Positions 21,031 to 52,675 of a DNA stretch of 64,000 nt are shown here, piece after piece. A program made the position numbers and the translations under genes. The first letter of the stretch is position 1; every line of letters starts with the position of its first letter. The notes below the pieces were generated by a model that had not been told where the DNA came from, made no database searches, and worked only from the letters and a program-made list of their open reading frames with translations. Origin of the DNA: a virus; IMG/VR virus record IMGVR_UViG_3300006841_000093, positions 1 to 64,000 of that record; one strand, given 5' to 3'.

Positions 21031-22698
21031 TTGATATATTTTAAAAATATTAGGTGGAAGAATTTACTGAGTACCGGCAATCAATTTACAGAAATAGAAT
21101 TAAATAAAACTTCCACTACACTAATTGTCGGAGAAAACGGATCAGGCAAATCTACTGTTTTAGATGCGTTGTGCTTTGGTCTATTCAGTAAACCATTTAG
21201 AAGAATTAATAGACCCCAATTAATCAACTCTATTAATGATGGTGGACTGTTAGTAGAGATTGAGTTTGAAGTTGGTAGTAAATCCTACATGGTTCGTAGG
21301 GGAATCAAGAAAAACATCTTTGAAATTTTTGTTGATGGTCAAAGATTAAATCAAGATGCCAAGACTCAAGATCAACAAGAATACCTTGAAAAGACAATAC
21401 TCAAACTGAACTACAAATCATTTACACAAATTGTTTTATTGGGAGCAAATCATTATATCCCATTTATGCAATTAAAGACACAAGATCGTAAAGGTATTGT
21501 TGAAGATTTACTTGATATTCAAATTTTCTCTGTAATGAATCACTTATTGAGATATAAAATATCAGAAAATAAAGAAGAACATCAAAATGTTGAAGTCAAT
21601 AGAAAATTATCTGTAGGAAATATTGATACTACTGAAGGTGTAATTAATGATTTAAAAAAGACCAAGAAAAATCAAATTCAACAAAATGAACGTGATATTA
21701 GTAACAATGAAAAAGAAATTGAGTCATTAAATACAAAAATACAAGAATTGATAGATTCAATATCAAATGATAAAACGGCTCAAACTCTTAAGGAGTTAGA
21801 AGGATATCAAGATGGTATTGAACGAAAGATGTTAGCAGCCGAAAAGGAAATCGAATTTTATGAACAAAACGATACGTGTTCTACTTGTAGTCAAGAACTA
21901 AATGAAGAACACAAAAAGAAGATGATTTCCGCACATCATGGAATAATGCATACGAGTAAAGGTGGATTATGGGAACTTGGTAACAAAATTAAAGATTTAA
22001 AAAAACGATTAGAAGAAGTAACAAATACTCAAACAGCTATAACTACACATCAAAATCAAGTTCAAGCAATTGGTGGTTATATTACAAAGCTAAAAGATCA
22101 AATTAAAGAAATAGAAGAAAGAGAAGATGATCTTGATGAAAAGGTAAAAAAGTTAAAAGAATTGAAAGAAGAATTTAAATCATGTATAGAACAGTTAGAA
22201 AAATTATCAGAACAGAAACAGTTGTATGAAACTGCAACTATTTTATTAAAAGATACTGGTATCAAAACACGTATCATTAAACAATATCTTCCTATAATGA
22301 ATACGTTAATTAATAAATATCTGGCCTCAATGGATTTCTTTGTGTCTTTTAATTTAGATGAAAAATTTGAAGAAAGCATTAAGTCAAGACATAGAGATGA
22401 ATTCACTTATGATTCATTTAGTGAAGGTGAAAAGATGAGAATAGACTTGGCACTTCTTTTCACTTGGCGAACTATTGCTAAGATGAAGAATAGTGTAAAT
22501 ACAAATTTACTGATTTTAGATGAAGTATTTGATTCCTCTTTAGATGCAAATGGTACAGATGAATTTTTAAAGATACTTAATCATTTAACAGGAAAACAAA
22601 ATGTTTTTATTATTAGTCATAAGGGAGATGTACTCTTTGACAAATTTAAAGATGTTATTAGATTTGAGAAATTTAAAAACTTTTCGAGGATAGTATGA
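21031..22698 (+). CDS. 46: Recombination endonuclease subunit gp46 (SbcC/Rad50-like)
   Basis: 555 residues (T4 gp46 has 560). ATPase partner of gp47 in end resection. The start is TTG at 21031: homology to gp46 begins right there (IYFKNIRWKNLLSTGNQ) and no ATG fits. Walker A VGENGSGKST (about 33-42), Q-loop region, long coiled coil about 180-400 with a zinc hook Cys283-x2-Cys286, signature FSEGEKMRIDLALLF and Walker B LLILDEVFDSSLD. Overlaps the deformylase gene by four bases. Confidence 0.95.
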   Translation: MIYFKNIRWKNLLSTGNQFTEIELNKTSTTLIVGENGSGKSTVLDALCFGLFSKPFRRINRPQLINSINDGGLLVEIEFEVGSKSYMVRRGIKKNIFEIFVDGQRLNQDAKTQDQQEYLEKTILKLNYKSFTQIVLLGANHYIPFMQLKTQDRKGIVEDLLDIQIFSVMNHLLRYKISENKEEHQNVEVNRKLSVGNIDTTEGVINDLKKTKKNQIQQNERDISNNEKEIESLNTKIQELIDSISNDKTAQTLKELEGYQDGIERKMLAAEKEIEFYEQNDTCSTCSQELNEEHKKKMISAHHGIMHTSKGGLWELGNKIKDLKKRLEEVTNTQTAITTHQNQVQAIGGYITKLKDQIKEIEEREDDLDEKVKKLKELKEEFKSCIEQLEKLSEQKQLYETATILLKDTGIKTRIIKQYLPIMNTLINKYLASMDFFVSFNLDEKFEESIKSRHRDEFTYDSFSEGEKMRIDLALLFTWRTIAKMKNSVNTNLLILDEVFDSSLDANGTDEFLKILNHLTGKQNVFIISHKGDVLFDKFKDVIRFEKFKNFSRIV

Positions 22699-25398: not shown

Positions 25399-26367
25399 AT
25401 GTTTAGATTCTTTTTGAATAAAAAATGGTGGTTGTGGTCTTGGCTTGGTTCAATAATTATTTTGGGATCACTTTGGGTTCAAGTAAAAATTGATGTAAAA
25501 ATAAATGAATGGTTTGGTGTTTTTTATGACATGATACAAAAAGCACTTGCTACACCAAATGCAGTTACAATAGAAGAATATTTTGCGAGTTTATTTTCTT
25601 TTATTACACTAGCAGGAATATATGTTGGACTTTATGTTGTAATAAGTTATTTTACAGCCCATTATTTGTTTAGATGGCGTACAGCAATGGTTGAGTGGTA
25701 TCATAGTGTATATGAGAAAGCCAGAACAATAGAAGGAGCATCACAAAGGGTTCAAGAAGATACAATTAAATTTACCCGTATAATGGAAAGTTTAGGAACA
25801 TCTTTAATTGAATCAGTTATGGTTTTGGTTCAGTTTATTCCTATACTATTTGGATTGTCAATAGGTATTCCAATATTCTTTTTTGGTGAATGGGAATATG
25901 GATTGATTACAGGTGCATTACTTTGGACATTAGGTGGTACTGCTTTTTTAATTGGATTAGGGTGGATATTACGTCTAGTTGGTATAGAATATGATATACA
26001 AGCAAAGGAAGCGGCATATAGAAAAATACTTGTCATTGCCGAAGATGATGGAACAGTTAGACCAAAGAAAATTGAGGAGTTTTTTGAAGATGTTCGTAAG
26101 ATTCATTTTTTAAGTTACTTACGTTATCTATATTTTAATATTGGTCGAATGGCATACTTACAAGCAAATGTATTATCAGCTTATGTATTCCTAGCACCAG
26201 CAATAGTTGCAGGAGTGATGACTCTAGGTGTAATGCAACAAATAATAAGGGCATTTGGTCGAGTAGAAGGATCAATGCAATATCTATTAAAGGCGTGGCC
26301 TACCATTATTGAATTAATGAGTGTCTATAGGCGTTTACGTGAATTTGAAACTAAATTGAAAGGATAA
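25399..26367 (+). CDS. SbmA/BacA family peptide transporter
   Basis: 322 residues. SbmA/BacA proteins are inner-membrane, proton-driven importers of peptides (microcins, antimicrobial and NCR peptides) without an ATPase domain. This one has about seven TM segments and family features: WVQVKIDVKINEWFGVFYDMIQ near 26-47, FRWRTAMVEWY (about 91-101), RVQEDTIKFTRIMESLG (about 117-133), and LRYLYFNIGRMAYLQANVLSAYVFLAP near 240-266. Slightly shorter than E. coli SbmA (406). AGGAG lies upstream. No ABC ATPase is nearby. Confidence 0.85.
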   Translation: MFRFFLNKKWWLWSWLGSIIILGSLWVQVKIDVKINEWFGVFYDMIQKALATPNAVTIEEYFASLFSFITLAGIYVGLYVVISYFTAHYLFRWRTAMVEWYHSVYEKARTIEGASQRVQEDTIKFTRIMESLGTSLIESVMVLVQFIPILFGLSIGIPIFFFGEWEYGLITGALLWTLGGTAFLIGLGWILRLVGIEYDIQAKEAAYRKILVIAEDDGTVRPKKIEEFFEDVRKIHFLSYLRYLYFNIGRMAYLQANVLSAYVFLAPAIVAGVMTLGVMQQIIRAFGRVEGSMQYLLKAWPTIIELMSVYRRLREFETKLKG

Positions 26368-27550: not shown

Positions 27551-29107
27551 ATGAAAATAGTTATTGTTGGTGGCGGCACTGCTGGTTGGATTAGTGCAAT
27601 AATTGCTAGTGCAAGACATCCTAATCACAATATTACTGTTATAGAAAGCAGTAAAATAGCAGTTGTAGGAGTAGGTGAAAGTACAACAGGATTTTTTACT
27701 TCTATACTTGCAAACGGAGCAACAAACTTTGGTTGTGACCAACATGAATTTATCAAAGAAACAGGTGCAACACTAAAATATGCTATCAAACATAAAGGCT
27801 GGACTAATAATATAGATGATTATTACATAGGACCGATAGATGGAACGACCACTAACTGGTTTGTACCTGACATTATGTTTAATTATGGTTTAGATAAGCT
27901 ATCGCGACAAGATATGTTAAAATTATCAAGGCTTGGCCATAGGATTTATCATGGTAGTAGTAATTTTAACATACATACTAAACAATTTACAAATGTAAAA
28001 GATCATGCATATCATATAGACGCACACCTTACTGGTCAATATTTTAAGAAAATTTGTCTACAAAGAAATAACATAAAATTTATTGATTCAGAGGTATTGG
28101 ATGTGTCACTTAATGAACAGGGATATGTTAAAGACTTGAGCCTATCTAATGGCCAGACTGTTGATGGTGACTTATTTATTGACTGTTCAGGCTTTAATCG
28201 TGTAATAATGAAACACCTACCAAGCAAATGGATCAGTTATAAAGACAACTTACCATTAAACGTCGGTATGCCATTCAATTTAAAATATAAACAAGATGAA
28301 ATTCCTGAACCATATACAACAGCTTGGGCTCAAAAAGCAGGATGGATGTGGCAAATTCCATTAATGGACAGAAAAGGATGTGGGTATGTGTATTGTGATG
28401 CATATACTACTCCAGACAAAGCACAAGAAGAAATAGAAACTATACTAGGACAGGAGATTGATCCTATTAGAACAATTAAATTTTCTTCTGGACGGCAAGA
28501 ATCTGCATGGATCAAAAACTGTGTAACAATAGGACTTAGTAGTGCTTTCTTAGAACCATTGGAAGCAATTAGTATACATTCAACTATTGCACAAGCAAAC
28601 AATCTATTCTTAGAATGTGTAAAACCTACCATCAACAATACAATAAATAAAGGCAGTATTGCAATTTATAACAAGCGTACAAGAATAATGTATGATGATT
28701 TAAAAGATTTTCTTGTAATGCACTATATGGGTGGCCGAGAAGATAGTGAATTCTGGAAATATATAAAAACTGGTGTAACAAAAACCGAAATGGTTAAAGA
28801 ATTACTAGAAATGGCTAAAACTAATATACCTAATATTAATGCAGTCCCAGATAATCCAGGCGGTGCAAATTGGGGTTTATGGAGTTATGTAATGGAAGGC
28901 ATTAATGTAATCAATAAAGATGTAGCGGGTGCAGAATTGTCATGTATATATGACGGGATCAACTTGGCTGAACTTGCACAACTAGATTATTATGAGATGA
29001 ATAAACAATGGGATCAAGACTTACAAAATGAGTCTACATACAAAGAATTTATTGAATATTTTAGGGGATTAACAGATGAAAAAGAAACATCGAACACTTT
29101 ACGATAA
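27551..29107 (+). CDS. Flavin-dependent tryptophan-halogenase-like enzyme
   Basis: 518 residues, full length. FAD-binding IVGGGTAGW (about 5-13), VGVGESTTGFF (about 39-49), the lysine expected to form the chloramine at about K76 in TLKYAIKHKGW, WMWQIP (265-270; the halogenase WxWxIP motif) and SSAFLEPLEAISIH (about 333-346). Chemistry known for the family: halogenation of tryptophan or other electron-rich aromatics with FADH2, O2 and halide; a reductase partner is not seen here. Substrate is not predictable. Its upstream composition break hints at acquisition. Confidence 0.85.
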   Translation: MKIVIVGGGTAGWISAIIASARHPNHNITVIESSKIAVVGVGESTTGFFTSILANGATNFGCDQHEFIKETGATLKYAIKHKGWTNNIDDYYIGPIDGTTTNWFVPDIMFNYGLDKLSRQDMLKLSRLGHRIYHGSSNFNIHTKQFTNVKDHAYHIDAHLTGQYFKKICLQRNNIKFIDSEVLDVSLNEQGYVKDLSLSNGQTVDGDLFIDCSGFNRVIMKHLPSKWISYKDNLPLNVGMPFNLKYKQDEIPEPYTTAWAQKAGWMWQIPLMDRKGCGYVYCDAYTTPDKAQEEIETILGQEIDPIRTIKFSSGRQESAWIKNCVTIGLSSAFLEPLEAISIHSTIAQANNLFLECVKPTINNTINKGSIAIYNKRTRIMYDDLKDFLVMHYMGGREDSEFWKYIKTGVTKTEMVKELLEMAKTNIPNINAVPDNPGGANWGLWSYVMEGINVINKDVAGAELSCIYDGINLAELAQLDYYEMNKQWDQDLQNESTYKEFIEYFRGLTDEKETSNTLR

Positions 29108-29132
29108 TTGGAAATATAAAAAAGGAAACTTT

Positions 29133-29570
29133 ATGGAATTTAATAATCCTATTTTTCAAACTCTTTTGGGTTTGGTAATTTTTTACATTGGTTTAAAAAT
29201 GTTTTCAGGTGGTATGAAGTCAATGGGAAAACTAGAACATCTTGAATATTTTATACACAATCCCTATTGGATGTTTTTCGGAGCAATAGGATGTACCCTC
29301 CTCTGGCAATCTTCATCACTTTCTACAACTGCTATAATAGGTCTAGTTGCTTCAGGCGCACTACCACTTCCTTCTGCGATTGCTGCAGTATTGGGAGCAA
29401 ATATAGGAACGACAGGCACTATATGGTTAGCAGGAATAATGGTTTCTGATGGAATGCCTCAAGGAATAACAAAACAAATAGCAATAGTACATACAGGAGT
29501 AAATGCAGCTATGGCAATTGCTTTACTTCCATTTTGTCAAGTTATAGCACGATTCGTGTCAAGATTTTGA
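29133..29570 (+). CDS. Half-size Na/Pi cotransporter protein
   Basis: 145 residues from ATG 29133, chosen because AAAGGA lies 7 bases upstream; the longer frame from 29076 overlaps the halogenase gene and has no matching sequence. The repeat FFGAIGCTLLWQSSSLSTTAIIGLVASGALPLPSAIAAVLGANIGTT carries the QSSS motif and GANIGTT of the Na_Pi_cotrans family (NptA/PhoU-linked). Normal transporters have two such inverted repeats; one is present here, so it would have to dimerise, or act as a modifier of the host carrier. Role in phosphate supply is inferred. Confidence 0.8.
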   Translation: MEFNNPIFQTLLGLVIFYIGLKMFSGGMKSMGKLEHLEYFIHNPYWMFFGAIGCTLLWQSSSLSTTAIIGLVASGALPLPSAIAAVLGANIGTTGTIWLAGIMVSDGMPQGITKQIAIVHTGVNAAMAIALLPFCQVIARFVSRF

Positions 29571-29643: not shown

Positions 29644-30636
29644 ATGCGAATTATTGATGATACTAAATTGGATTTTAGTGATGTTTTAATTACCCCCAAA
29701 AGATCTCAACTTACCTCACGCAAAGAAGCAGAACTCTCCAGACATTTTACCTTCAAACATTCAAATCACACTTGGACAGGAATTCCTATAATTGCGGCCA
29801 ATATGGATCATACAGGAACAATTGCTATGGCACATGTTCTTATGGAATATCCTATGCTTACAGCACTATGTAAGTTTGTTGAATCTTCTGAGTGGGGATG
29901 GAACAAAAATATAATAAGAACAGTCGGATTAGATCAAAATTTGGATGAACTACCTTATATGTCTGACTCGGCGCCATGGATTTGTCTTGATGTGGCGAAT
30001 GGATATACAGAACGATTTAATGATTATGTTGCATTAATGAGAGAACACGAAGCAACCAAAGGAAAAATAATCATAGCAGGAAATGTATGTACACCAGAAG
30101 CAACTGAACAAATAATTTTAGCAGGAGCAGATATTGTAAAGATAGGAATAGGTCCGGGCTCTGTTTGTACTACTCGTAAAATGACAGGGATAGGATATCC
30201 ACAATTATCTGCAATAATAGAATGTGCAGACGCGGCACATGGATTAGGTGGTCACATTGTTGCAGATGGTGGATGTACAGTAGTAGGAGATATAGCAAAG
30301 GCTTTTGGTGGTGGAGCAGATTTTGTAATGTTAGGTGGTATGTTAGCAGGACACAAAGAATGTGAAGGCGAAGTTGAAGATGATACAATGACATTTTATG
30401 GTATGTCTTCAGAAGAGGCACAACTCAAGTATTATGGTGAAAAGAAAACACATAGAGCATCAGAAGGAAAGAAAGTTCAAGTTCCATACAAAGGAAATGT
30501 TGCAGATACAATAGAAGAAATTTTAGGAGGATTACGAAGTTCTTGTACTTATGCCGGAGCACGAACATTAAAAGCATTACCAAAATGTTGTACATTTGTA
30601 AAAGTTAATAGACAATTAAATGAGGTATTTTCATGA
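29644..30636 (+). CDS. guaC: GMP reductase (GuaC)
   Basis: 330 residues (E. coli GuaC 347). NADPH-dependent deamination of GMP to IMP. The barrel shows IPIIAANMDHTGT (about 47-59), IIAGNVCTPEAT, and the active loop KIGIGPGSVCTTRKMTGIGYPQLSA with catalytic Cys175; LGGMLAGHKECEGE follows. The GxGxGSVCTTR loop with the TGIGYPQ context fits GMP reductase better than IMP dehydrogenase, and no CBS domain is present. GGAAGGA precedes the ATG. First gene of the purine operon; overlaps the next by four bases. Confidence 0.9.
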   Translation: MRIIDDTKLDFSDVLITPKRSQLTSRKEAELSRHFTFKHSNHTWTGIPIIAANMDHTGTIAMAHVLMEYPMLTALCKFVESSEWGWNKNIIRTVGLDQNLDELPYMSDSAPWICLDVANGYTERFNDYVALMREHEATKGKIIIAGNVCTPEATEQIILAGADIVKIGIGPGSVCTTRKMTGIGYPQLSAIIECADAAHGLGGHIVADGGCTVVGDIAKAFGGGADFVMLGGMLAGHKECEGEVEDDTMTFYGMSSEEAQLKYYGEKKTHRASEGKKVQVPYKGNVADTIEEILGGLRSSCTYAGARTLKALPKCCTFVKVNRQLNEVFS

Positions 30637-31091
30637 GTGTAGATTTATGGTATGGATGGAGAGAAATGCGAAGAGATGTAAATACTCTTTGTAGAGAAAT
30701 AACATTAGATAAATTTAATCCTGAAGTTGTAGTAGGAATTTCAAGAGGTGGACTATTACCAGGCGTTATGATGTCACATTGGATGGAAAAACCATTTAAA
30801 CCAATTAAAGCGGCACTTAGAGATCATCCCGAATGGGAAGATTATTTACCAAGAAAAACAGATAAGCGTGTTTTAATTGTAGATGATGTATGTGATTCTG
30901 GTGAAACTTTTCATAAAATGAGAAACCACATTACAGAAAGAGCCAATGGAGTAGATGTTAGATTTGCTACTCTTTGGTGGAATAATGAGTGTAATTTTGA
31001 ACCTCATTATTATGCACAGCAATGTGCAAAGGATTCAGAAAATATCTGGATTCATTTCCCGTGGGAGAATTGGTGGAATTCTCCTAATTAA
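30633..31091 (+). CDS. Purine phosphoribosyltransferase, Gpt/Hpt-like
   Basis: 152 residues. EVVVGISRGGLLPGVMMSHWM (about 31-51) is the PPi loop region and VLIVDDVCDSGETF (80-93) is the PRPP-binding motif. Size and SRGG match xanthine-guanine phosphoribosyltransferases, converting guanine, xanthine or hypoxanthine plus PRPP to the nucleotide. Placed directly after GuaC and before a nucleoside-binding protein, it fits purine salvage. Exact base specificity cannot be read. Confidence 0.8.
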   Translation: MSVDLWYGWREMRRDVNTLCREITLDKFNPEVVVGISRGGLLPGVMMSHWMEKPFKPIKAALRDHPEWEDYLPRKTDKRVLIVDDVCDSGETFHKMRNHITERANGVDVRFATLWWNNECNFEPHYYAQQCAKDSENIWIHFPWENWWNSPN

Positions 31092-31116
31092 CAATAAAAC
31101 TCGGAAGGAGTTAAAT

Positions 31117-32205
31117 ATGAAGAAAATTATTGCTATTTTAGCAGTTACGGCTCTTGTTGTAACTACTGGAATAATGGCAGTTGGTAAAAAAGTACCTTCA
31201 GTTGGTTATGTTTTAGTGGGACCAAAAAACGATGGTGGTTGGTCAATGAGACATTATCATGGTTTCATGTCCTTAAAAAAACATGGTTATAATGTATCTG
31301 GTGTTGAAATGGTGCCAGAAGCAGAATCAACAAAAGTATTCCGAAAATTAGCACGAAAACATGATATTGTTTTTGCAACATCTTTCGGTTATATGGATCA
31401 CATGTTGAAAGCTGCAAAGAAAGATTCTAGTACAGTTTTTATGCACGCCACAGGATATAAGGGTAATGATACAAATATGGACAACTACGTTTGTCATTCA
31501 TTCCAAGCACGATACCTCACAGGAATTGCAGCTGGAATGTTGACAAAAACAAATAAGATTGGTGTAGTTGGTTCACACCCAATTCCTGAAATTATTCGTA
31601 ACATTAATGCTCTAACTATTGGAGCCCAAACAGTAAATCCAGACATTGAAGTGAATATCGTATGGATTAATTCGTGGTTTGATCCGCCTAAAGATATGGA
31701 TGCGGCCAAAGCACTTTTGGAATCTGGAAATGATATACTTTATACAACAACCGATTCACCTAGTGTAGTTTCTCTTGCTCAAAAAGCATGGAAAACTGAG
31801 GGTAAGGAAGTATGGAGTATGGGCAATGATGCACCTATGGGAAGTAACGGCCCAGACAGATACATCACAGGAATGATGTTTAATTGGAATGTTCTTTACA
31901 AACATATAGTTGATCAACTTGCAGAAGGTAAACTTCAAATGAATCAACGTTGGGCATGGGGATTACAAGAAAATTGTGTAGCTCTATCGCCGTGGGGTAA
32001 AAATGTTCCAGGTGATGTAGTGAATAAAGTTGAAACTATCAAGATGCAATGGATTCAAGATGATCTAGGTACATACTTTCCTTTTGATCAAGGAGTTACA
32101 AAAGCAGATGGTAGTACAGTTGGTAAAGGTGAAATTGCAAGACCTCAATTAGAAACTATGCAATATTTTGTCAAAGGAGTGGCTTCACCATTTCCTGTAA
32201 AATAA
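31117..32205 (+). CDS. BMP/PnrA family periplasmic nucleoside-binding protein
   Basis: 362 residues from ATG 31117, selected by GGAAGGAG 6 bases upstream and a following signal peptide (basic start, hydrophobic residues about 5-22). The mature protein has the BMP family marks: VGYVLVGPKNDGGWSMRHYHG near 29-49, FATSFGYMDHML, IGVVGSHPIPEIIRNINALTIGAQ, and SMGNDAP. BMP proteins bind purine nucleosides or related ligands for ABC importers. No ABC permease or ATPase genes occur here; the next gene is a secondary-type permease, so it may feed the host importer or that permease. Confidence 0.85.
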   Translation: MKKIIAILAVTALVVTTGIMAVGKKVPSVGYVLVGPKNDGGWSMRHYHGFMSLKKHGYNVSGVEMVPEAESTKVFRKLARKHDIVFATSFGYMDHMLKAAKKDSSTVFMHATGYKGNDTNMDNYVCHSFQARYLTGIAAGMLTKTNKIGVVGSHPIPEIIRNINALTIGAQTVNPDIEVNIVWINSWFDPPKDMDAAKALLESGNDILYTTTDSPSVVSLAQKAWKTEGKEVWSMGNDAPMGSNGPDRYITGMMFNWNVLYKHIVDQLAEGKLQMNQRWAWGLQENCVALSPWGKNVPGDVVNKVETIKMQWIQDDLGTYFPFDQGVTKADGSTVGKGEIARPQLETMQYFVKGVASPFPVK

Positions 32206-32210
32206 TAATT

Positions 32211-32240
32211 GGGGATGCCCTCATGGATGAGAAATTCCCC
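32211..32240 (+). other. Intergenic hairpin between BMP and permease genes
   Basis: GGGGA (32211-32215) pairs with TCCCC (32236-32240), enclosing CTCAT/ATGAG (32220-32224, 32227-32231). There is no T-run, so rather an mRNA processing or stability element than a full terminator. Confidence 0.45.
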
Positions 32241-32263
32241 CCAAAAGAAAATGAAAGGTTAAT

Positions 32264-33397
32264 ATGGAAGGTCTGTTAGAAAGCATTTTAACAGCGGTTG
32301 CGGTGGTGATTAATGGTATACCTCAAGGGATTTTAGCACTATCTTTTGGGTTTGCCGCCTTTCCTACTGCAATAGCATTCGTTATTGGTATTATAGGATC
32401 AATAGCATTTGCTTCAGTAGCAACTATTTCGTTTCAAGCAGAAACGATTACATTAGCCGGTACTTTAGGTAAAACTATGAAAGAGAGGTTATCTCTCATA
32501 TTTTGGGGTGCCGCATTATTGTTGATTCCGTCATTGCTAGGAATGAACGAAGCACTTGTACAGTTTATCGGTCCGATTGTTGTCACATCGATGATGTGTG
32601 GAGTTGGATTGATGCTTGCAAATGTGTCAATAGATTTGTTTAATTCAGAAAAATGGACAGGCATAGTCTCTATGGTTAGTGCCTTGGCTGTTTGGTTTTG
32701 GACAAAAGATTTGGCATGGACAATTATTTCTTCTGTACTTATTTCTACTGCATTTTACGTTTTACTTAAACAAAATGCAATGTTACGAGAAACATTGGGA
32801 GTAGAAATAGAAGAGATTGAAGTTGATAAGTCAAGAGAAAAATTCACTACAGGAAATATTGAGTGGAAGTTTTGGACAAATAAAAATATTGTTTTAGGCG
32901 CATTATCTCTTGCGTGTCTAAACATTGGTGCAAATATCTCATTTGGTAAGATTACAGGATCTATTGCGGGTGCAAATACAAATATAGACCATTTAGCAAT
33001 TTATTCAAGTCTTGCAGACATGGGATCTGCATTCTTTGGTGGTGGGCCGGTTGAGGCAATCATCTCAGGAACTGCTGCAGCTCCAATGCCTATAGTTGCA
33101 TCTTGTATTATGATGGGAATTATGGCAGTCATACTTTTGACTAAATTACTTCCTGTTATTGGACAATATGTTCATCGTGCATCTATTGCGGGATTTCTTT
33201 TTGTCTTAGGAGTATTCGTTACTTTCATGACAAACATTAATGGTGCAATAGCTCAAGGTGGTGAATTTGCTGGCCCATACGGATTCGGTCCAATGGGAAT
33301 GGTAATTGGTGCAACCGCCTTTGTAACTATGAAGTGGAATCCTTTTTATGGATTAGTTGCAGGATTTGTTACTCAAATGATTTTTGTGGGAGCATAA
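32264..33397 (+). CDS. NCS2/AzgA-like nucleobase permease
   Basis: 377 residues with about 10-12 hydrophobic segments. GIPQGILALSFGFAAFPTAIAFVIG (about 18-42) and the central NIGANISFGKITGSIAGANTNIDHLAIYSSLADMGSAFFGGGPVEAI (about 224-270) resemble the NCS2/AzgA purine permease fold, with alanine/glycine-rich half-helices around the substrate site. A charged loop (about 178-200) interrupts the TM helices. Family assignment is tentative; neighbours (three phosphoribosyltransferases and GuaC) support a purine base as cargo. AAAGG precedes the ATG. Confidence 0.65.
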   Translation: MEGLLESILTAVAVVINGIPQGILALSFGFAAFPTAIAFVIGIIGSIAFASVATISFQAETITLAGTLGKTMKERLSLIFWGAALLLIPSLLGMNEALVQFIGPIVVTSMMCGVGLMLANVSIDLFNSEKWTGIVSMVSALAVWFWTKDLAWTIISSVLISTAFYVLLKQNAMLRETLGVEIEEIEVDKSREKFTTGNIEWKFWTNKNIVLGALSLACLNIGANISFGKITGSIAGANTNIDHLAIYSSLADMGSAFFGGGPVEAIISGTAAAPMPIVASCIMMGIMAVILLTKLLPVIGQYVHRASIAGFLFVLGVFVTFMTNINGAIAQGGEFAGPYGFGPMGMVIGATAFVTMKWNPFYGLVAGFVTQMIFVGA

Positions 33398-33952
33398 ATG
33401 GAAACGTATACTCTTAACGTAGCAGGTCTACAACGAGAGTTACCCAAAGTACAAATTAATGACGAGCTCGCAATAGCGAGCTTTGTCATGTTTGGTGACA
33501 CTCAGTTGATAGAATCTTGTGCAGAAGCAATTATTTTACATGCAGATTTTCCAAATCCTGTAAGTCAAATTGATATTTTGTGTTCGCCTGAAGCAAAATC
33601 AATTCCTTTAGTTCATGCTGTTGCGAGAAGATTAAATGTAGATTATGTGATTGCAAGAAAATCTGTTAAAGGATATATGTCTGAACCAATGGTTGAGAAA
33701 GTTCAATCTATCACGACAATAGGAGCTCAAACTCTTGTACTTGATAAGAGTGATGTTGAAAAATTAGAAGGTAAAAATATTTGTATAGTTGATGATGTTG
33801 TATCTACTGGTGGTTCAATTATTGGATTAGAAAATATGTTAAAAAAGATTGAATGTAATATAGTATGTAAAGCGGCGGTCTTATTGGAAGAGGCCGGTTA
33901 TGATAAAGATGATCTAGTGTATCTAGAAAAATTACCAATTTTTAAAGTATGA
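33398..33952 (+). CDS. Adenine-phosphoribosyltransferase-like enzyme
   Basis: 184 residues. SPEAKSIPLVHAVARRLNVDYVIARKSVKGYM (about 63-94) and the PRPP motif ICIVDDVVSTGGS (128-140) match the Apt-like branch of type I phosphoribosyltransferases, including VQSITT and LVLDKSDVEKLEGK ahead of the motif. Expected reaction: adenine (or another purine) plus PRPP to nucleotide. Starts one base after the permease stop and overlaps the next gene (ATGA). Confidence 0.78.
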   Translation: METYTLNVAGLQRELPKVQINDELAIASFVMFGDTQLIESCAEAIILHADFPNPVSQIDILCSPEAKSIPLVHAVARRLNVDYVIARKSVKGYMSEPMVEKVQSITTIGAQTLVLDKSDVEKLEGKNICIVDDVVSTGGSIIGLENMLKKIECNIVCKAAVLLEEAGYDKDDLVYLEKLPIFKV

Positions 33953-34338
33953 TTGATTTATTTCAAAAGGTAGATTTCAAATCCCACGCAGGATTAGATT
34001 TGAAATGGAAAATCGAAATGGATGCACTTTCACATGGAGAGTGGGAGTGTATTGCTCAAATGATTATGGAACTTTCTCCCCCATTTAAAGAAGCAATTGG
34101 AATTCCTAGAGGTGGTAATATACTAGGAAAATTAATGAATAAACACGGCACAGGAAAAAGAGAAGATCCAATATGTATTGTTGATGATGTCCTTACTACA
34201 GGCGGATCAATGAATGAATTTAGAACAAAGAGACATTGGAGAAACCCATCTAAGTACATTGGATGGGTAGTTTTTGCTAGATCAAAACCTCCAGATTGGG
34301 TAACTGCCCTTTTTCAAATGCCATCAACTACTAAATAG
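33949..34338 (+). CDS. Short phosphoribosyltransferase-family protein
   Basis: 129 residues. EAIGIPRGGNILGKLM (about 48-63) and the PRPP motif ICIVDDVLTTGGSM (76-89) are present, but the protein is short and lacks most of a hood domain, like orotate- or ComF-type members. It is the third PRT of the operon. It may be a regulatory or reduced enzyme. Last gene of the unit, ending 8 bases before the convergent tRNA gene. Confidence 0.7.
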   Translation: MIDLFQKVDFKSHAGLDLKWKIEMDALSHGEWECIAQMIMELSPPFKEAIGIPRGGNILGKLMNKHGTGKREDPICIVDDVLTTGGSMNEFRTKRHWRNPSKYIGWVVFARSKPPDWVTALFQMPSTTK

Positions 34339-34559
34339 TTTTTTATGGCTGCGGGGGTAGGATTCGAACCTACAGATTTTCTGCCAACAACAGATCGCGT
34401 TTGCCGGTTTCGCCACCCCGCAGTAAGTTTTTCAGCTCTTTTCGTTTGTTCTTCTAATGTTAGTTTTCCTAATTCACGTGCTCCTCTATTTAATTCCTCA
34501 ATAACTTTATAAATATCGTTTGGCTCATAAATTGGAATAACTTTCTTACTCTTCATCAT
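34314..34559 (-). CDS. Small ORF that runs through the tRNA gene
   Basis: 81 codons from ATG 34559, which overlaps the 3' end of the synthetase-like gene. The first 45 or so residues (KKVIPIYEPNDIYKVIEELNRGARELGKL) look like real protein. Codons about 46-72 are the tRNA itself (34346-34422) read as protein, and the stop lies beyond it. Either a gene lost its natural end when the tRNA arrived, or the ORF is a translated leader between synthetase and tRNA. No known domain. Confidence 0.4.
   Translation of the reverse strand: MMKSKKVIPIYEPNDIYKVIEELNRGARELGKLTLEEQTKRAEKLTAGWRNRQTRSVVGRKSVGSNPTPAAIKNYLVVDGI
34346..34422 (-). tRNA. tRNA, anticodon probably GTT (Asn)
   Basis: Cloverleaf on the - strand: acceptor TGCGGGG/CCCCGCA (34416-34422 with 34350-34356), D-stem GCG/CGC, anticodon loop TTGTTGG (34384-34390) with GTT at 34386-34388, T-arm GTAGG-TTCGAAT-CCTAC, discriminator G and encoded CCA (34346-34348). 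The anticodon stem has one A-A mismatch and position 37 is G, both unusual. It would read AAC/AAU (Asn). It follows a class II synthetase-like gene. Confidence 0.75.
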
Positions 34560-35433
34560 TTTTAAGAATCAAATTAGCACGTTTCATTGCACTAATCATT
34601 CTAGTTACACCGATTCCGCCCCCATATCTAGGTATAAAATCGTGTGATAAAAATTCATCGAGTTCAGCTTCTACTCTTTCTTTTCCGAATAGATTAAATA
34701 ACAAGTCTGCATAACCGCCTTCAGAGATAGTATAGAATTGTTTTCTCATTTCATCAACATCTGTACCACGTTCAGCACTACCGATAGTTTCCATGCCTCC
34801 CATGATAACATCACATTTATTAGCAAGCTTATGTTGTTTTTTTACATCCATTTCACCAAGTTTCATATTCCAAAAAGGACTTGTAGATTGGGGAAAATGT
34901 GTTAGAAAAAATACATCACCATATTCTTGATACATTTCTTCTTCATGGTGGGCTTCTAATTCTGAGCCAGTATATTTTGCTAATACACTCTGATAAAATC
35001 CGCCAGGAAAATCTTCAGTATACATATTTTTTTCAATTCCGGCTTTAAATCCAAGATGTTTACAAAGATCATTTTCCATTTGAAGAAGATCCTCAAAATC
35101 ACCAGGAGCTTCAAATTCAAACATAGGAAAAATTAATTCATGTCTCCCCTCTTTTGGATTTTGTTCTTGTCGATATGAAGTTGATAAACAATAACATCCA
35201 GCAAGTTCAGGTCTTGTCAGTAGTTCATATTCTAACCACATTTGACCAGTTTGAGGAAGTGGCCAGATTTGTCCTGAATATTCGTATGTAGCAACAGTAG
35301 TAGGATCTTCACATGCTGCTAAAATAGATAATCTGTTTTGGGTATGTACTTCTTGAAATCCTCTATCATCAAAAAAGGATCGTAGTTGGCGAGTTACTTC
35401 TGTGAAATCATAAGGTGATATAATTGAGCTCAT
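34546..35433 (-). CDS. Class II tRNA-synthetase-like catalytic domain (AsnRS/AspRS/AsnA-like)
   Basis: 295 residues without an anticodon-binding domain. Motif 2 region CLSTSYRQEQNPKEGRHELIFPMFEFE with R88-Q-E90, a GGMETIGSAERG block near 212-223, and motif 3 RYGGGIGVTRM (269-279) place it in the class IIb Asp/Asn group or with its stand-alone relatives: AsnA-type aspartate-ammonia ligase and the archaeal asparagine synthetase derived from AsnRS. It might make asparagine from aspartate, or charge the tRNA next door. GGAAAGGAG precedes ATG; an exact late box lies 54 bases upstream. Confidence 0.75.
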   Translation of the reverse strand: MSSIISPYDFTEVTRQLRSFFDDRGFQEVHTQNRLSILAACEDPTTVATYEYSGQIWPLPQTGQMWLEYELLTRPELAGCYCLSTSYRQEQNPKEGRHELIFPMFEFEAPGDFEDLLQMENDLCKHLGFKAGIEKNMYTEDFPGGFYQSVLAKYTGSELEAHHEEEMYQEYGDVFFLTHFPQSTSPFWNMKLGEMDVKKQHKLANKCDVIMGGMETIGSAERGTDVDEMRKQFYTISEGGYADLLFNLFGKERVEAELDEFLSHDFIPRYGGGIGVTRMISAMKRANLILKNDEE

Positions 35434-35506: not shown

Positions 35507-35534
35507 TTGACAAAATGGAAAACTATGATATAAT
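35507..35534 (+). promoter_or_regulatory. Host-type promoter before the U32-like gene
   Basis: TTGACA 35507-35512, 16-base spacer, TATAAT 35529-35534. Divergent from the late - strand promoter at 35487. Confidence 0.85.
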
Positions 35535-35563: not shown

Positions 35564-36529
35564 ATGCGATTAAAATCTAACAAAGTACCACACGGACAAG
35601 ATATATTGAACCCAGAATGGCCAGATGCTAAATGGGATGTTGGTGGACTGTTTGTACATGATGATAATATTTTTCAGCTTTTAGATAATATAAAGCAAAG
35701 ATATGATTGTGTATTACCAATTACTTCAGTATTTGGATGTTATAATGTGAGATGGCAGGGAGGTAGAACCGCCTGTACTTCACCTATTAGTAATTATAGT
35801 GGATGGACACCAGAAGATTTAATTAGACAATATAACGATAGAGGAATCGGAGTTACATTTACTTTTTCCAATACTTTAATCAAAGAAGAACATTTATCAG
35901 ATCCAAGTTGTAATTATTTGTTAGATATTTTAGCAACACAAGGATATGAAAATAATGCAGTTGCTATTACTTGTGATATTTTGTCAGATTACATTAGAAA
36001 TAAATGGCCACATGTAACACAAAAAGCATCGATTGTAAAACTAGCATCAGAAATGCCTAAGAGAAGAACATTTGAATATTACGAAAGTTTATTTGAAAAA
36101 TATGATAAAATATATTTACATCCAGATGATAATCTTAATCTTAGACTATGTGAAAAAATAGCAGAATCTGGAAAAGTTGATAAGTATGAACTTTTAGTGA
36201 ACGAAAAATGTACTATAAATTGTAGTATACGAAAAGAACATTATGATGAAACTTCTTCAGCAGTTATAGAAGGATGGCATGGAATGTTTAATTTTTCTAA
36301 TGTTGATTTTATTCATAATCCTAGTCACCCCAATAGTATATGTGAAAGGTGGACAAAATCAGACTTAAGATCGTGTGTGCTCTCTAAGGCCGAATTTAAA
36401 GAACTTTATGATATGGGATTTCGAAATTTTAAATTACAAGGAAGAGATGCACCGTGGGGATTTGTAAATTATAATATTTCAGATTGGTTAGTAGAACAAG
36501 ATACCATTGCACCAATGTTAAATTTTTAA
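35564..36529 (+). CDS. U32-family-like Fe-S protein
   Basis: 321 residues. The C-terminal half has MGFRNFKLQGRDAP (284-297), close to the GVDSLKIEGR signature of peptidase U32 proteins, and four cysteines C216, C220, C260, C271 spaced as possible 4Fe-4S ligands. U32 members RlhA, TrhP and UbiU/UbiV take part in hydroxylation of RNA bases or ubiquinone; proteolysis is doubtful for most. The N-terminal half is barrel-like without clear motif. It is one base from the methyltransferase gene at 36531, so the two likely work together. AAAAGGAAG is the ribosome site. Confidence 0.55.
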   Translation: MRLKSNKVPHGQDILNPEWPDAKWDVGGLFVHDDNIFQLLDNIKQRYDCVLPITSVFGCYNVRWQGGRTACTSPISNYSGWTPEDLIRQYNDRGIGVTFTFSNTLIKEEHLSDPSCNYLLDILATQGYENNAVAITCDILSDYIRNKWPHVTQKASIVKLASEMPKRRTFEYYESLFEKYDKIYLHPDDNLNLRLCEKIAESGKVDKYELLVNEKCTINCSIRKEHYDETSSAVIEGWHGMFNFSNVDFIHNPSHPNSICERWTKSDLRSCVLSKAEFKELYDMGFRNFKLQGRDAPWGFVNYNISDWLVEQDTIAPMLNF

Positions 36530-51238: not shown

Positions 51239-52675
51239 ATGTGTGGATTCGTAGCTGGAAATATTTTTAAAGATACAAAACACTTTCATGCCGCGTTGAG
51301 TCTTATTGATCATCGCGGTAGAGATTATAAAGGTGTTAATTATTGTATTAAAACAAATACTTACTTAGGTCATAATAGACTTTCTATTCAGGGGTTGACT
51401 GAGGAATCTAATCAACCTATGATTAAAGATAATTATACATTAGTTTATAATGGTGAATTATGGCACAGTATGAATCCACATAAAGAAAAATTCAATTTAC
51501 AGACTAGTAGTGATACAGAGTTGTTACTCAATATGTTTCACTTAGACCAACAAGATTGTATCAAAACACTTGATGGTATGTTTGGGTTTGCGGTCTTGGA
51601 TAATAAAAGAAATTACTTGACCTTTGCTAGAGATTTTATGGGTAGAATTCCCTTGTACTTTTTCAAGAGAGGTAAAGAAATTATCGTAGCAAGTGAACTA
51701 AAAGCAATTACAAACTCATTGAACATTAATGCTTCTGATGTAGTATTAGCAGATCCAGGTTGTTACTATCAATTTGATTATGTAACAGGAGAATTGACAA
51801 AGAGAACATATTATGAATTTCCTGCAATGGATGATATTGAAGATATGTCAGAAGAAGAAGTGATGGATGGTATACGTAATTTATTAACTGAAGGTGTACA
51901 TAATGAGTTAATAAGTGATGTACCTGTTTGTACAATTTTGTCAGGCGGAGTAGATTCTACTGTCGTTACATATCTACTCAAACAAAAAATTCCAGATCTA
52001 CAAGCATTTGTAGTGAGTATGGGTGATACTGGAAAGAAAGATGATTTGTACTATGCAAGAATGGCGGCTAAAGAAATTGGTGTTCCACTCCATGAAGTTA
52101 TTATTGATGAGGAGTGGGTAGAACAAAATTTAACTGAAGCAGTCTATGCAGTCGAAGATTTTAGTTGGACACAAGTTTCTCCGGCGGTTGCTCAATTAGC
52201 ACTTTCCAAAAGAATTCATGATGAAGGGTTTAAGGTCGTCTTTGGTGGAGAAGGTAGTGATGAATTGTTTGCTTCCTATGGACATGTATTTGCGTGGAAC
52301 TATGAAGATAAAGATTACATCAAAGAACGATATAAGCTGGTAGTAAATCTCCACAAAAACAATTTAATACGAACCAACAAAGCAATGATGTATGGTGGAA
52401 CAGTAGAATTAAGAACACCATTTCTTCACAAAGATTTGGTCGAATTTTGTTTGAGAATTCCCCCGAAGTATAAGCAAACAGCCGATAGAGTGTGGAAACC
52501 AATGTTAAGAAAAGCTTTTTCTGGCAAACTTTCAGATGAATTATTATTCAGACCAAAAAAGACTTTTCAAGATGGTTGTCACACTATCTACCTCAAGAAT
52601 CATAAGGAAAGAATTAAAGAAACGTATTTGACGCATTATGGTCAAAAAAATCCATTAGAGAGTTTTTTCGGATGA
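51239..52675 (+). CDS. asnB: Asparagine synthetase B (glutamine-hydrolysing)
   Basis: 478 residues (E. coli AsnB 554). N-terminal glutaminase with nucleophile Cys2 after removal of Met (MCGF), HRGRDYKG and NGELWH substrate loops; synthetase domain with PP-loop LSGGVDST (234-241), and GGEGSDELFASY near 337-348. Makes Asn from Asp, Gln and ATP. Shorter C-terminus than bacterial AsnB. No clear ribosome site. asnB-like genes occur in marine T4-like phages; here it joins a second Asn-related locus at 34346-35433. Confidence 0.9.
   Translation: MCGFVAGNIFKDTKHFHAALSLIDHRGRDYKGVNYCIKTNTYLGHNRLSIQGLTEESNQPMIKDNYTLVYNGELWHSMNPHKEKFNLQTSSDTELLLNMFHLDQQDCIKTLDGMFGFAVLDNKRNYLTFARDFMGRIPLYFFKRGKEIIVASELKAITNSLNINASDVVLADPGCYYQFDYVTGELTKRTYYEFPAMDDIEDMSEEEVMDGIRNLLTEGVHNELISDVPVCTILSGGVDSTVVTYLLKQKIPDLQAFVVSMGDTGKKDDLYYARMAAKEIGVPLHEVIIDEEWVEQNLTEAVYAVEDFSWTQVSPAVAQLALSKRIHDEGFKVVFGGEGSDELFASYGHVFAWNYEDKDYIKERYKLVVNLHKNNLIRTNKAMMYGGTVELRTPFLHKDLVEFCLRIPPKYKQTADRVWKPMLRKAFSGKLSDELLFRPKKTFQDGCHTIYLKNHKERIKETYLTHYGQKNPLESFFG

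Follow-up and report, generated by a model that had tools for sequence, protein, structure and literature searches.

A phage-borne gene cassette predicted to acquire and salvage purine bases

A putative purine-base acquisition and salvage cassette

Six genes encoded head to tail in an IMG/VR virus record (IMGVR_UViG_3300006841_000093) are likely to constitute a phage-borne cassette for purine-base acquisition and salvage. The stretch of DNA analysed, referred to as the window, covers positions 1 to 64,000 of a marine, T4-like source record of 134,505 bases (134.5 kb), and the six ORFs, all of them open, occupy positions 29644-34338 on its plus strand. They encode a GMP reductase (GMPR), a Gpt-type purine phosphoribosyltransferase (PRT1), a BMP-family binding protein (BMP), a permease (PERM), an APRT-like phosphoribosyltransferase (PRT2) and a short PRT-like protein (PRT3). 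The first-pass annotation had described the block as a complete purine capture and salvage set. The capture and salvage reading is supported by the fold of PERM, its linkage to the APRT-like gene, the purine-binding group to which BMP belongs and the PRPP loops; "complete", however, is too strong, since the activity of PRT3 is uncertain and the conversion of IMP to AMP and GMP needs host enzymes. The predicted fold that PERM shares with SLC26 anion transporters, the weak match of PRT3 and the lack of a riboswitch count against this explanation, as does the fact that PRT sequences do not reveal catalytic specificity.

From what is known of the protein families, the following course is proposed. 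The genes would be expressed during infection, and BMP would be exported to the periplasm, bind adenine or guanine-type bases, and pass them to a BMP-type ABC importer of the host, while PERM would independently take one of the purine bases, adenine most probably, through the inner membrane. Using PRPP, PRT2 would convert adenine to AMP and PRT1 would convert guanine, hypoxanthine or xanthine to GMP, IMP or XMP; GMP reductase would then turn GMP into IMP, from which host enzymes would make AMP. The outcome would be extra purine nucleotides, and, as the phage genome is AT-rich, a supply biased towards A would suit it. The purine reading is further supported by dN/dS ratios against other phages that, for the pairs computed, are well below 1 throughout the cassette (approximately 0.15-0.17 for GMPR and 0.05-0.11 for PERM, the other genes staying below 0.3); purifying selection acts on all cassette genes.

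A variant of this explanation, with the same gene identities, is that the cassette recaptures bases leaking from the breakdown of host DNA and RNA rather than bases from seawater, so that transport would keep them from being lost while host nucleic acids are degraded. The T4-like phage has its own replication genes and the block adjoins the DNA polymerase gene in relatives, both of which favour recapture, but the sub-micromolar guanine affinity of the BMP group suggests a dilute external substrate. Recapture would still be compatible with such an affinity, and we regard it as a real, if minority, possibility.

Layout and genomic context

The head-to-tail order was confirmed, whereas the earlier statement that genes overlap at most junctions was slightly overstated: two of the five junctions overlap, by 4 nt each (GMPR/PRT1 and PRT2/PRT3), and one abuts (PERM/PRT2, 0 nt), and gaps of 25 nt and 58 nt separate PRT1 from BMP and BMP from PERM, respectively. 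A promoter scan was no richer than shuffled sequence (40 versus 39.7 matches) and gives no operon limits. Upstream of GMPR, at 29076..29570 (+), lies a half-size protein of 164 aa with a Na/Pi-cotransporter domain (PF02690, 57 bits), which shows good conservation among viral relatives; there it often adjoins GMPR, as in several viral contigs, or an AsnRS-like gene. It is a frequent neighbour in relatives and may be a member of the cassette.

The record contains T4-like terminase, portal, scaffold, capsid, sheath and DNA polymerase genes, and the DNA polymerase shares approximately 51% identity with its counterparts in cyanomyophages and in marine viruses from single cells. Alongside this core are encoded ribosomal protein S21 and peptide deformylase, which have been described as features of pelagimyophages, the T4-like phages of SAR11 (PMC7029224), and psbA is absent from the record. 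A SAR11-type host is plausible by this analogy, given the lack of psbA and the presence of S21 and peptide deformylase as in pelagimyophages.

Several other genes surround the block. Further upstream are a MotA/TolQ/ExbB proton-channel family protein (PF01618, 23345-23830), which adjoins an uncharacterised membrane-anchored ORF, a SbmA/BacA-family transporter (PF05992, 444 bits, 25399-26367), which is unexpected in a phage, and a tryptophan-halogenase family protein (PF04820, 320 bits, 27551-29107). The genome also encodes a ribonucleotide reductase of class II, the B12 type (L040, 9710-11671), and it is a passing thought, prompted by the presence of both genes, that the SbmA/BacA transporter might import cobalamin for this enzyme. 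Downstream, a tRNA-Asn(GTT) gene (34346-34422, minus strand) sits beside a 295-aa AsnRS/AspRS-like class II catalytic core (34546-35433, minus strand), which gives a partial match to AsnRS models and is conserved in relatives L002 and L009, and an AsnB-type asparagine synthase is encoded at 51239-52675. A perfect sigma-70 consensus promoter (TTGACA-16-TATAAT, 35507-35534) lies just upstream of an uncharacterised ORF at 35564-36529.

GMP reductase and phosphoribosyltransferases

The first gene of the block (29644..30636, +) is solidly assigned by sequence to GMP reductase. Its product scores 474 bits against NCBIfam PRK05096 (cut-off 397), matches human GMPR1 and GMPR2 with E values of 1e-106 to 3e-110, and is of the GuaC/GMPR1-2 type. 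The catalytic-loop motif GPGSVCTTR is present, and the active-site cysteine loop SVCTTR aligns with that of human GMPR1.

PRT1 (30633..31091, +) matches PF00156 with 60 bits, possesses the PRPP loop VLIVDDVCDSG, and has as its nearest solved relatives the archaeal Pyrococcus purine PRT 1VDM and Sulfolobus GpT (4TRB/4Z1O); its substrates are probably guanine, hypoxanthine or xanthine. PRT2 (33398..33952, +) scores 218 bits against NCBIfam PRK07322 (cut-off 143), has solved relatives 5ZGO and 6FSP, and possesses the PRPP loop ICIVDDVVSTGGS. Both therefore combine a family match with a PRPP loop, as expected of purine PRTs. PRT3 (33949..34338, +, 129 aa) possesses a PRPP loop, ICIVDDVLTTGGS, and a GIPRGG motif; its PF00156 score of 14 bits is below the cut-off, its profile matches PRT1 and PRT2 weakly, and an AlphaFold model built with four sequences (pLDDT 38) was unusable. 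PRT3 thus appears PRT-like, with uncertain activity. HMM searches against NCBIfam and Pfam bear out the initial family assignments of GMPR, PRT1, PRT2 and BMP, and the PRPP loop motif, the lack of which would have spoken against salvage, is found in all three PRTs; membership of the PRT family, however, holds firmly for only two of them.

The permease

PERM (32264..33397, +) had been described as an NCS2-like permease. No Pfam, NCBIfam or PHROG model matches the protein, the NCS2 Pfam model included, and a profile search against solved structures gave only a marginal match to SLC23A1 (E 0.05). An AlphaFold model for which 27 relatives from phages and bacteria were aligned (pLDDT 86, pTM 0.84) depicts a polytopic protein with the UraA/SLC26/AZG fold: the 7+7 transmembrane arrangement of UraA, which is common to SLC26 and SLC4, is present, and Foldseek returned SLC26, UraA, AZG1 and SVCT1 with query TM scores of 0.61-0.74. 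The only good match in BFVD was a giant-virus STAS-domain protein. On the predicted structure, PERM is a secondary transporter with the NCS2 fold, so that a permease with a UraA fold stands, whereas the sequence-family models do not place it in NCS2.

The substrate of PERM is predicted to be a purine base, most likely adenine, because its relatives in Synergistota and Bacillota adjoin the same APRT-like gene as in the phage. A search for riboswitches at the bacterial and phage loci found none that would hint at a substrate. Alternatively, the cargo of PERM may be a pyrimidine or an anion (sulfate or bicarbonate, for example), in which case its position next to a PRT would reflect another pathway. 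The best Foldseek matches are indeed SLC26 anion transporters, and the absence of an NCS2 Pfam match is in line with such a role, but UraA, AZG1 and SVCT1 match nearly as well, and the linkage to APRT-like PRT2 recurs in bacteria of two phyla and in several groups of phages, which makes this alternative unlikely.

The binding protein

BMP (31117..32205, +) is predicted to be a periplasmic purine-base-binding protein. It matches PF02608 with 145 bits, and its N-terminus forms a hydrophobic, signal-like segment in which a lipobox cysteine is absent. The first-pass annotation had called it nucleoside-binding, but among solved structures it is far nearer to the base-binding AtzT (6PI5, E 2e-56) and a Brucella protein (3S99, 5e-56) than to the nucleoside-binding PnrA (2FQW, only 5e-7). 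AtzT binds guanine with a KD of approximately 0.11 uM and adenine with a KD of 2.5 uM, and contacts the base through Tyr45, Ser97, Phe98, Glu165, Trp194, Asn218 and Asn220, with Asn169 behind (PMC6834077). In the phage protein, S97, F98, E165, N169 and W194 are identical, Y45 is replaced by W, which is still aromatic, N218 by T and N220 by D; the Asp at the latter position is the same as in 3S99, whose structure was modelled with adenine. The family match together with most of the purine-contact residues places BMP in the AtzT group, and, given that AtzT and 3S99 are closest, that most base contacts are kept, and that the Asp is as in 3S99, BMP probably binds bases rather than nucleosides.

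BMP and PERM do not appear to form one importer. Each occurs without the other, and a search of the 134.5-kb record, possibly an incomplete one, returned no BMP-type ABC permease (PF02653). The sole ATPase match in the phage is weak and partial, located at 21094 inside an unrelated 555-aa ORF, which we take to be a putative recombination nuclease. As BMP and PERM are separable and no BMP-type ABC permease was found in the phage, BMP probably serves a hypothetical host BMP-type ABC importer, with PERM as a second route. That BMP instead hands bases straight to PERM, forming a binding-protein-dependent secondary importer from two bacterial parts, is quite improbable; such an importer is not known for the UraA fold.

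Modularity in uncultured ocean phages

Smaller modules make up the cassette, a mosaic that related uncultured ocean phages have in pieces. Among viral contigs with enough flanking sequence, some of which are near-duplicates, PRT1 immediately precedes BMP in 44/54 and follows GMPR in 18/22, and BMP is upstream of PERM in 18/20. PRT2 is located just downstream of PERM in all 24 such marine phage contigs, and the two genes also adjoin each other in the further phage contigs L227, L229 and L231. In 36/55 BMP contigs, some of them near-duplicates, PERM was not found within the available contig DNA.

In the relatives L017 and L083, the block lies between the DNA polymerase and recA/helicase-like genes, as identified by reading the sequences rather than by family search, and in L005 (6034-7976) an adenosine deaminase, with a score above the NCBIfam cut-off, is encoded together with a 2OG-Fe(II) oxygenase between BMP and the permease. 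Both the adenosine deaminase and the proximity to replication genes support the purine reading. An oxygenase similar to that of L005 recurs near BMP in L083 and L017. In L110 (11080-13831), a complete NMT1-type ABC importer, consisting of a binding protein, an ATPase and a permease, directly follows BMP and is followed in turn by an arylsulfotransferase-like gene. In several relatives (L083, 9668-9889; L005, 4628-4849; L110, 9714-9941), PRT1 and BMP are separated by the gene for a hydrophobic membrane protein of 73-75 aa and of no known family, which is absent from the block in the window.

Bacterial relatives and origin

PERM exhibits 67-72% identity to relatives in Synergistota and approximately 43-47% to those in Bacillota. 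At an E value of 0.001, relatives were found in 36 of 151 sampled Synergistota and 12 of 300 Bacillota genomes, some of these matches being partial or very weak. Bacterial sampling comprised these two phyla and a scan of GTDB contigs by exact peptide patterns, which can miss distant relatives, Alphaproteobacteria included. A gene of the PRT2 type adjoins the permease gene at all 13 distinct Synergistota loci inspected and at most of the Bacillota loci inspected. In Synergistota, the relative of BMP is encoded next to an ABC ATPase; at two of three loci it also has a Gpt-like PRT as a neighbour, which is the same pairing as PRT1 and BMP in the phage.

On a phylogenetic tree, the marine phage permeases form one clade beside Synergistota, and the phage copies L230/L231 and L229 fall outside it, L229 on a long branch that makes its placement unsure. 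The separation of these copies from the marine clade, and the presence of the permease-PRT2 pair in unrelated large phages, indicate that phages captured the pair more than once.

The block is not a chimera, since a separate viral contig (L138) matches it at 100% across GMPR, PRT1 and the start of BMP, and permeases 84-96% identical to PERM occur in 28 other viral contigs; contamination was ruled out on these grounds together with the T4-like genes and GC content. In GC content, both overall and at third positions, the block is similar to the genes for DNA polymerase and halogenase of the phage, PERM being slightly higher. That the block is an artefact of assembly, or cellular DNA wrongly classed as viral, would fit the bacterial ancestry of the permease gene, but is exceedingly improbable given the T4-like genes of the 134.5-kb record, the dozens of independent viral contigs that carry the same genes, and GC and GC3 values like those of most of the genome.

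Comparison with known systems

GMPR and PRTs are already known singly in phages, and GMPR is encoded, as here, by Caulobacter phage Cr30 and by a deep-ocean group of pelagimyophages (PMC7029224). A permease of the PERM kind, in contrast, is absent from the isolate phages searched, with no match in 50,697 records; BMP and PRT2 matches among isolate phages were mostly to short, unannotated human-gut contigs that are possibly bacterial, and were set aside. A non-exhaustive literature search returned no such cassette and no combination of a transporter with three PRTs in phages, in agreement with the earlier suggestion that the combination is unreported. One study describes purine synthesis genes without purine transport (PMC13288924). 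A mention of "adenine phosphoribosyltransferase (Pta)" (PMC7785012) concerns acetate metabolism and is no precedent.

If the proposed function is correct, phages alter what an infected cell imports, beyond what it makes, and phage infection is linked to the purines dissolved in seawater. The finding also draws attention to a family of permeases for which Pfam has no model.

PERM shares the UraA fold with the NCS2/NAT/AzgA permeases UraA, AZG1 and SVCT1, but has no NCS2 Pfam match and forms a separate sequence family. The phage protein BMP belongs to the same subgroup as AtzT and Brucella 3S99, with most base contacts kept, whereas those proteins serve ABC importers and the phage has neither the PF02653 permease nor a convincing transport ATPase. 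The closest counterpart of the permease module is the PERM-APRT (PRK07322) pair of Synergistota and Bacillota, in which the gene for the same APRT-like PRT comes directly after that for a homologous permease, as in the phage; no BMP, GMPR or Gpt-type PRT, however, was found next to the bacterial pair, and the BMP relative lies elsewhere, in an ABC operon. Relative to these systems, what is new here is the addition of a transport step to phage nucleotide-metabolism genes, in modules that are also present in uncultured relatives from the ocean.
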